DNA of 64,000 nucleotides from Pseudomonas sp. MYb118 (GTDB taxonomy: Bacteria > Pseudomonadota > Gammaproteobacteria > Pseudomonadales > Pseudomonadaceae), in assembly GCF_040947875.1 (NCBI RefSeq), contig NZ_JBFRXN010000001.1, positions 248,001 through 312,000 of the forward strand, written 5' to 3'. Both the position numbers and the translations under genes were made by a program. The notes below the pieces were generated by a model, which ran no database searches, was not told where the DNA came from, and saw only the letters and a program-made list of their open reading frames with translations. Positions 50,957 to 52,106 of the stretch are shown piece after piece. The first letter of the stretch is position 1; the number at the start of each line of letters is the position of its first letter.

Positions 50957-50989
50957 TGTGTCTTGATCAGGGAATAAAATCAGAGGTGA

Positions 50990-51131
50990 GAGGGGTGGAT
51001 GGCAAGCTGTGAGTCCGCGGTGCTTGAAGCACGTGTGGGAGCCGAGCTGCCATCCACCTTTCCACTCTGGCCCATAAGCCCGAACAGTTAGACGAGCGCC
51101 ACTCGAATCACAAGCGTGGGCAAAGCCAGAG
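50990..51131 (+). ncRNA. Candidate bridge RNA of the IS110-family element
   Basis: Stem-loop 1: GGTGGATGGC (50994-51003) pairs with GCCATCCACC (51049-51058), extended by AGCT/AGCT past a bulged A. Its loop contains AGTCCGC (51012-51018), matching the left target AGCCCGC with one G-U, and TGTGGGAG (51034-51041), the complement of the right target CTCCCACA. Stem-loop 2: CTCTGGC (51065-51071) pairs with GCCAGAG (51125-51131). Its loop contains ACAGTT (51084-51089), equal to the right end of the element before CT, and CACAAG (51109-51114), the complement of CT plus the left end (CTTGTG). This is the target-loop/donor-loop plan known for IS621. RNA ends are not known. Confidence 0.8.
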
Positions 51132-51164
51132 CACTCTCACTTCTGAGTGTAAGAGGGTTTTGTC

Positions 51165-52082
51165 ATGATTTCCTGGGTTGGCATCAATATCTCCAAATCA
51201 AAGCTCGTTGTCTGGGTTCAACCACAGAACGACGGCTTTGATGTTCCAAACAGTTCTGAAGGCTTCGTTGAGCTGATCCAGCGCTTGAACCGTTACGAAG
51301 TTGGCCGGGTTCTGCTGGAAGCTACGGGCGGTTATGAGCGCCAGAGCATGGTCGCCTTGCAAAACGCGCACTTCAACGTGCTGAGGATCAATCCCCGGCG
51401 AGCCAGAGCCTTTGCTGTGGCAATGGGCAAAAATGCCAAGACCGATCCGATCGACGCCGCTGTCCTGGCCGCGTTCGCCGAAGCTCTGCATGCTCCCTGC
51501 GACCCAGTAATCTCGCCCCAGCGAGAGGCTCTACGCGAGCTGATTCAGCTACGCGAACACTTGGTTCAGCAGCGAGACGACAACAAGCGTCGGCTGCAAC
51601 AAGCCCAGCTGCCAGCGGTTGTCGGCATGATCGAGGAACACATTCGCTATTTGCAGATACAGATCAGGCAACTCGGCAAGGCCATCAACCAAAGCATGCG
51701 CGACCTGGATGCAGAGAAAACCGAGCGGCTGATTGCTGTTAAAGGCATAGGCACAGTGGCTGCCGCCAGTTTGCTGGTTTACTTGCCCGAACTTGGTGAG
51801 CTGAATCGTCGGGAGATCGCGGCGTTGGCCGGCATCGCGCCATACAACGATGACAGCGGTAATCACAGCGGGAAGCGCCAGATTTACGGGGGACGAGCCC
51901 GAGTCCGCCGTGCACTCTACATGTCTTGCTGGGTCGTAATCCGCCACCAGGCAGACTTCAAGGCACGCTACGAGGCTTTACGCGAGCGAGGCAAGAGCGC
52001 GAAAGTCGCGCTCATCGCCTGCATGCGAATACTGCTGATTAGACTCAACGCCATGCTGCGAGACGGAACAGAGTGGCGGTGA
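51165..52082 (+). CDS. IS110-family DEDD recombinase (first Asp replaced by Asn)
   Basis: 305 residues. The N-terminal RuvC-like domain carries [10 protein letters not shown] (N8 where Asp is expected), LLEATGGYE with E52, and [11 protein letters not shown] with D94 and D97. A coiled-coil linker (about 115-175) leads to the C-terminal Tnp domain with [15 protein letters not shown], whose S231 is the likely catalytic serine, and [19 protein letters not shown]. The gene is otherwise intact, with GTTTTGTC before ATG and no strong ribosome site. With Asn at position 8 metal binding may be impaired, so the copy may be inactive unless helped. Confidence 0.9.
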
Positions 52083-52106
52083 TGAGCGGTATGGGTAAGA
52101 CAGTTG

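Follow-up and report, generated by a model that had tools for sequence, protein, structure and literature searches.

An IS110-family element of Pseudomonas with a predicted bridge RNA whose guides match one class of REP ends

The IS110-family element found in the analyzed stretch of the Pseudomonas sp. MYb118 genome (64,000 nucleotides, referred to below as the window) very probably uses a bridge RNA encoded in its long left leader. Its target, as judged from the sites that its copies occupy, is the class AGCCCG-CT-CCCAC of REP ends, not the REP in general. Insertion of IS110 elements into REPs has long been known (Tobes and Pareja 2006, PMC1525189), and the bridge RNA and guide pairing of the REP-targeting ISPpu10 were predicted in 2024, as described in PMC11208160, so that the element belongs to a known kind. 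As far as the searches show, the additions to this prior knowledge are a base-resolved choice among REP variants and a proposed identity for the Rfam family sX15.

The element, its leader and its guides

The element lies within a REP array; when joined, its two window flanks are 98/100 identical to the intact array unit that starts at 52590. Its borders and main parts are the following.

50936..50956, plus strand: what remains of the REP on the left side (left target), up to and including the CT core at 50955-50956; assigned from its sequence and the intact units of the same REP array
50957..52106, plus strand: IS110-family element without either core copy; assigned from 7 copies with differing outer flanks
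51165..52082, plus strand: IS110 recombinase of 305 amino acids with the DEDD_Tnp_IS110 and Transposase_20 domains
52100..52108, plus strand: right end ACAGTTG and right CT core (52107-52108)
52109..52114, plus strand: right target CCCACA of the interrupted REP

The CT found on both sides of the element is a short core common to the target and the element ends. This genome (G000; relatives are referred to by similar G numbers for genomes and L numbers for loci) carries seven copies that are 94-100% identical to the window copy and differ in their outer flanks. All seven lie between AAGCCCG-CT (left) and CT-CCCACA (right). The original prediction of an IS110-family element at 50957..52106 is borne out, these coordinates being those of the element excluding both core copies; the occupied target that it gave, AGCCCGC-CT-CCCACA, had one C too many and is corrected here to AAGCCCG-CT-CCCACA.

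Both recombinase domains score above their cut-offs, and the NCBIfam model transpos_IS110, which bears the name “IS110 family RNA-guided transposase,” is matched with 203 bits (cut-off 140). The solved relatives of the recombinase found by sequence were ISCro4 and IS621, and no others. The noncoding left end is long (208 nt, 50957-51164) and the right end is short (24 nt, 52083-52106); with these 24 nt downstream of the recombinase gene, the noncoding RNA region that characterizes the IS1111 group at this place was not found.

Several other features were seen. A short subterminal inverted repeat is formed by TGTCTT near the left end (50957-50966) and AAGACA near the right end (52097-52106), and tandem REP units of 128-133 nt adjoin the element (52184-52788). 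In one of the G000 copies (L004), the frame changes close to the end of the recombinase gene, and the match stops at residue 286. The minus strand of the window contains Rfam matches above the cut-off to P11 sRNA, narK, and rmf RNA, at 21446-21581, 24792-24863, and 53145-53276.

The leader has the following predicted parts.

50986..51140, plus strand: predicted bridge RNA; its outer helix (50986-50992 with 51134-51140) is less certain than the two arms
50994..51058, plus strand: target-binding arm, a 13-pair stem with 7 pairs changed on both sides
51012..51018, plus strand: left target guide (LTG) AGTCCGC, with one U-G wobble at -4
51034..51041, plus strand: right target guide (RTG) TGTGGGAG
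51065..51131, plus strand: donor-binding arm; 3 both-side-changed pairs in the outer and middle stems and 1 in the inner stem
51084..51089, plus strand: left donor guide ACAGTT, matching the element's right end
51109..51114, plus strand: right donor guide CACAAG, pairing with the left end CTTGTG

Both target guides overlap the CT core. The predicted fold of the leader has an energy of -89.6 kcal/mol (z score, -4.75), and none of 200 shuffles was equally stable. In an alignment (A2) of 29 distinct leaders of relatives, whose recombinases are 47-100% identical, 98.1% of the cells in the two arms are paired, and 11 pairs are changed on both sides; sliding the partner strand by 1-3 columns left no more than 2 such pairs. 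These counts do not separate the outer helix, with 95.1% of cells paired and zero compensatory pairs, from a competing hairpin that covers the ribosome site, with 93.1% and one compensatory pair, and the consensus fold leaves the outer helix unsettled. The string CUCUCAC (within 51134-51156) has two alternative partners, GUGAGAG in the outer helix and the strand that contains the ribosome site, which makes for a possible translation switch. With other RNA ends (50975-51180 and 51000-51180), the donor arm is absent from the minimum-energy folds, one of which, with a z score of -0.35, is no better than shuffles.

Ordered guide pairs were also sought in 2,000 dinucleotide shuffles of the leader, with the permitted guide spacings fixed after the real spacings had been seen; the target score was reached in none of them, the donor score in 2, and the sum of the two in none. 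Since the donor ends hardly vary, they provide no covariation test for the donor guides. The two-loop leader with four guide strings that was described initially has all four of them at the coordinates listed above, and the view that so many matches are unlikely by chance agrees with the summed shuffle score. The accompanying reading of the leader as a bridge RNA is supported, at the level of sequence comparison, by the conserved two-arm fold and by the covariation of guides and targets described below.

Both strands of the leader

The element would be expected to leave as a circle, whose joined ends would form a promoter driving the leader. The leader RNA would be bound by the recombinase and would hold the circle and a REP together during strand exchange at the CT core. 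In the integrated element, a promoter and terminator scan returned none of either. The following features bear on the transcription of the two strands.

50975..50980, plus strand: TAAAAT, which resembles a -10 box and may belong to a circle-junction promoter; it follows, at a distance of 17 nt, the TTGCTT that straddles the joined ends
50980..51141, minus strand: full-length match to Rfam family RF02234, sX15 (51.8 bits, cut-off 55, E value 5.3e-8)
51146..51151, minus strand: TACACT, a -10-like box on the antisense strand, immediately upstream of where sX15 starts

A TAnnnT box is found at the sense -10 place, with a spacing of 17, in all 29 leaders, and it is the only sense TAnnnT kept in at least 27 of the 29 rows. 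The -35-like string that arises where the ends join is TTGCTT. The G018 and G363 leaders have TTGGCT instead, and the spacing there is still 17 because the left end is one base shorter and the right end is one base longer. Given that the -35 match is weak, just 3-4 of 6 positions (3 of 6 in the window), the circle-junction promoter is to be seen as suggestive only.

On the opposite strand, TAnnnT occurs at the column of the antisense box in 27 of the 29 leaders and one column off in the remaining 2, and no other antisense TAnnnT is conserved in 27 or more rows; no -35 for this box was identified. The sX15 cut-off, which the window does not reach, is exceeded in the relatives L050 (109.1 bits, at L050 1305-1461), L025 (59.4), L026 (57.9), L041 (56), and L022 (55.3). 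A scan of 29 sources (the window, 18 loci, and 10 further loci) gave 19 matches at E values of ≤0.01, all 19 of them antisense to the recombinase gene; since a large part of the loci are closely related, the matches are not independent. The misses comprise L028, L032, L043, L049, L092, L096, and the plasmid loci L097 to L100. Among the Xanthomonas IS110 loci, sX15 was found in none of three plasmid loci, and phage records gave none.

In Rfam, sX15 is entered as an sRNA of Xanthomonadaceae, and the entry gives neither a link to IS110 nor a function. This RNA reportedly stems from the dRNA-seq work on Xanthomonas strain 85-10. That work yielded 24 sRNAs, and sX15 is not named in the part of the paper covered here (PMC3771888); in the part consulted of PMC6337395, sX15 is merely listed. 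A possible counterpart has been described in ISPpu9, whose leader is covered by Asr9, an antisense RNA of ∼180 nt that is stable for more than 60 min; raised levels of Asr9 increased transposition 3.8- to 3.9-fold, an effect that was put down to better translation by the authors (PMC8450116). Among titles and abstract openings, including those since 2024, no publication was found that links sX15 or an antisense RNA to an IS110 bridge RNA.

The antisense sX15 match suggests that an antisense RNA lies over the bridge RNA, and an RNA of the sX15/Asr9 type might, with less certainty than the steps above, cover and modulate the same stretch. A broader proposal, which is tentative and falls a little short of an even balance, is that this IS110 lineage has a two-stranded bridge-RNA locus, with the sense bridge RNA coming mainly from the circle and an antisense RNA, which covers the whole bridge RNA, coming from a conserved promoter located where the recombinase gene begins. 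If so, sX15 and Asr9 of ISPpu9 would be the same thing, and the antisense RNA would set the supply of the bridge RNA and the translation of the recombinase or, at the boldest, would itself act as a guide. In the same proposal, the outer helix and the ribosome-site hairpin would compete for CUCUCAC as a possible switch.

Guides, occupied sites and REP variants

Guides were compared with the occupied sites in 74 insertions, 73 of them with distinct flanks. Pairing at RTG positions 0 to +6 is complete in 72 of the 74, the exceptions being L005 and L006. At LTG positions -5 to -1, where 68 insertions are readable, 63 of these are paired if wobbles are counted, with L075, L039, and three G164 copies as exceptions; in the other 6, the flank ends at a contig end, and among these L043 fits only when shifted by one base. 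The sample excludes L008 to L010 and L021 (the same window copy), L024 (the same record as L011), L020, L044, L046, L047, and L048 (partial or not alignable), and L027, which is without a clean leader. The leaders of L049, L050, L087 to L094, and L096 lie outside A2, and their guides were read by eye. For the relatives, no more than five candidates per genome were scored, so that copy numbers are at least those given; the seven G000 copies come from a separate search, and three shortened G363 copies were left out.

Different guides go with different targets. The LTG AGTCCGC goes with the target AGCCCGC, ATTCGC is found in AATTCGC in G018 (5/5 copies examined), and GCCCC is found in GCCCC in L038 (G308). 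The RTG TAGGAG is found in CTCCTA in G363 (2/2) and G127 (1/1). Both guides and both target sides are changed in G160 (CGCCCC-CT-TCCTA), and in G132 the next CT of the REP end, 3 nt further on, is used, with guides that match that site. A very different site, GTGCC-CT-CACTC, is occupied in the G338/G187 class; it is matched in 6 of 9 copies and is one base off in L089, L092, and L093. In classes B and C, the left guide has no match to the core C. When ten guide classes, drawn by hand after the data had been seen, were permuted against the targets, the total was equaled or bettered in 6 of 300,000 permutations, and for the eight A2 classes alone 48 of 40,320 permutations were as good. Across genomes, the guide is partly confounded with the REP type of the host. 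Matches to TwoAYGGAY-RNA adjoin elements of the G338/G187 class (L049 2444-2546 and 2903-2966; L092 1644-1746), and their target may belong to that repeat.

The exceptions are of several kinds. L005 and L006, two G000 copies, share an RTG change of T to G opposite +5 in an unchanged target, which suggests at least one transposition after the guide had changed, or else gene conversion. L075 and L039 have mismatches in the left guide. The three G164 copies (L036, L079, and L080) all mismatch their guide at -1, sitting in AGCCCC with a guide for AGCCCG in a genome with 343 AGCCCC and 18 AGCCCG ends; either the mismatch is tolerated or the guide has yet to catch up with the host REPs. A guide matching AGCCCC is carried by the G308 element and by G187, whose single copy of that clade sits in AAGCCC-CT, one base shorter. 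G363, with U in the guide at -3 and C in its two targets, was considered as a counter-example to the guide rule and rejected: this genome has 1 RGCTCG end versus 292 AGCCCG+CCTAC ends, so that what was available there was the U-G wobble class. Comparison of the loop-1 guides with the targets of other copies, which the original prediction had proposed as a check, thus found other guides in other targets in G018, G363, G160, and G132 and lack of agreement in G164, L005/L006, L075, and L039.

These data bear on which strand is the guide. That the guide is an antisense, sX15/Asr9-like RNA rather than the sense leader is very unlikely, even though all the sX15 matches are antisense to the recombinase, Asr9 is stable and promotes the transposition of ISPpu9, one left-donor deviation in the G000 copies fits the antisense strand, and the avoidance of the G-T wobble at +4 points to an antisense guide or is neutral. 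Against it, the transition-type deviations at inner LTG positions, namely U in place of C at -4 (two clades) and at -3 (G363) and G in place of A at -5 (G307/G288), can be wobbles only with the sense strand as the pairing partner, and IS621 is described as expressing the sense strand (PMC11208160). The sense strand is therefore kept as the predicted guide.

It is just as improbable that the recombinase itself reads the sequence or hairpin of REP DNA, with the leader a mere structured mRNA leader and the loop matches by-products. Such recognition would fit the location of every examined close-clade copy at the same REP place and the insertion of the G164 copies despite a guide mismatch. It is rejected because guide and target change together, as in the RTG G-to-A change with a target C-to-T change, the 3-nt shift in G132, and the G338/G187 site; also, recombinases of the same fold are described as RNA-guided (PMC11208160).

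Guide pairing by the sense leader would also account for the choice among REP variants, which were counted by sequence pattern genome by genome. G000 has 2,901 REP ends, including 2,234 RGCTCG (77%) and 391 AGCCCG+CCCAC (13.5%), and all seven copies are in the latter class. Distinct copies likewise lie in the guide-matching class in G362 (4/4; 25% of ends), G010 (3/3; 13%), G261 (5/5; 38%), and G309 (4/5; 15%), where the fifth copy is in AGTCCG, a perfect match to the U of the guide. At +4, all 24 copies with a CCCAC-fitting RTG lie in CCCAC, while CCTAC makes up 23-74% of the ends in those six genomes. L053 has the same flanks as L022 and is not an independent count in this comparison; the p-value products (1e-16, 3e-13, and 2e-8) assume independent insertions and are only a rough guide, and G018 taken alone is weak evidence (0.657^5, ∼0.12). 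Least probable of all, and rejected, is the explanation that target choice mirrors the commonest host REP variant and the guides match as copies of local REPs: the G018, G164, and G308 elements do lie in or close to their hosts' commonest listed class, but G000, G362, G010, and G309 elements used a class comprising 13-25% of ends, and RGCTCG, at 65-82%, was used by none of the 19 copies counted. The suggestion that the RNA steers the element to REPs can accordingly be retained in a narrower form, for one guide-matching REP class instead of REPs in general, and the large target pool foreseen for it does exist, as 391 perfect 13-mers in G000.

Significance and known systems

The element offers a natural experiment on bridge-RNA targeting, in which hundreds to thousands of near-identical REP ends are available and single guide bases predict the ends that are used. 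The lineages with a lagging guide (G164) and a changed guide (L005/L006) indicate which mismatches are survivable. If the link to sX15 is true, an Rfam sRNA without a stated function gains an identity, and bridge RNAs gain a testable antisense partner.

Among known systems, IS621, an IS110-group element from E. coli, is described as having the same recombinase fold, long left leader, short right end, CT core, and REP target; its four guides, borne by two loops, also agree in order and strand sense (PMC11208160). Unlike IS621, the element has a recombinase that is only distantly similar (95 bits), a different REP and different guides, and a leader whose alignment suggests an outer helix around both arms. 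ISPpu10, an IS110 element of P. putida, is similar by description, with 7 of 7 copies in REPs, a 2-bp direct repeat, and predicted guide loops (PMC1525189, PMC11208160). ISPpu9 from the same species also resembles it by description, as an IS110 element in REPs with a long leader and an antisense RNA over it, but its reported repeat is AG, and a further sRNA, Ssr9, lies downstream (PMC8450116). AG is the complement of CT, and if the repeat is written in the direction of the gene, the guide strand of ISPpu9 may be the opposite one. The match of Rfam family sX15 to the leader's antisense strand is full-length and takes in the donor-guide loop. ISPa11, of the IS1111 group, is an RNA-guided relative with a REP target in Pseudomonas; the IS1111 seekRNA is described as lying downstream of the recombinase gene (PMC11187229), whereas the predicted RNA of the window element lies upstream.
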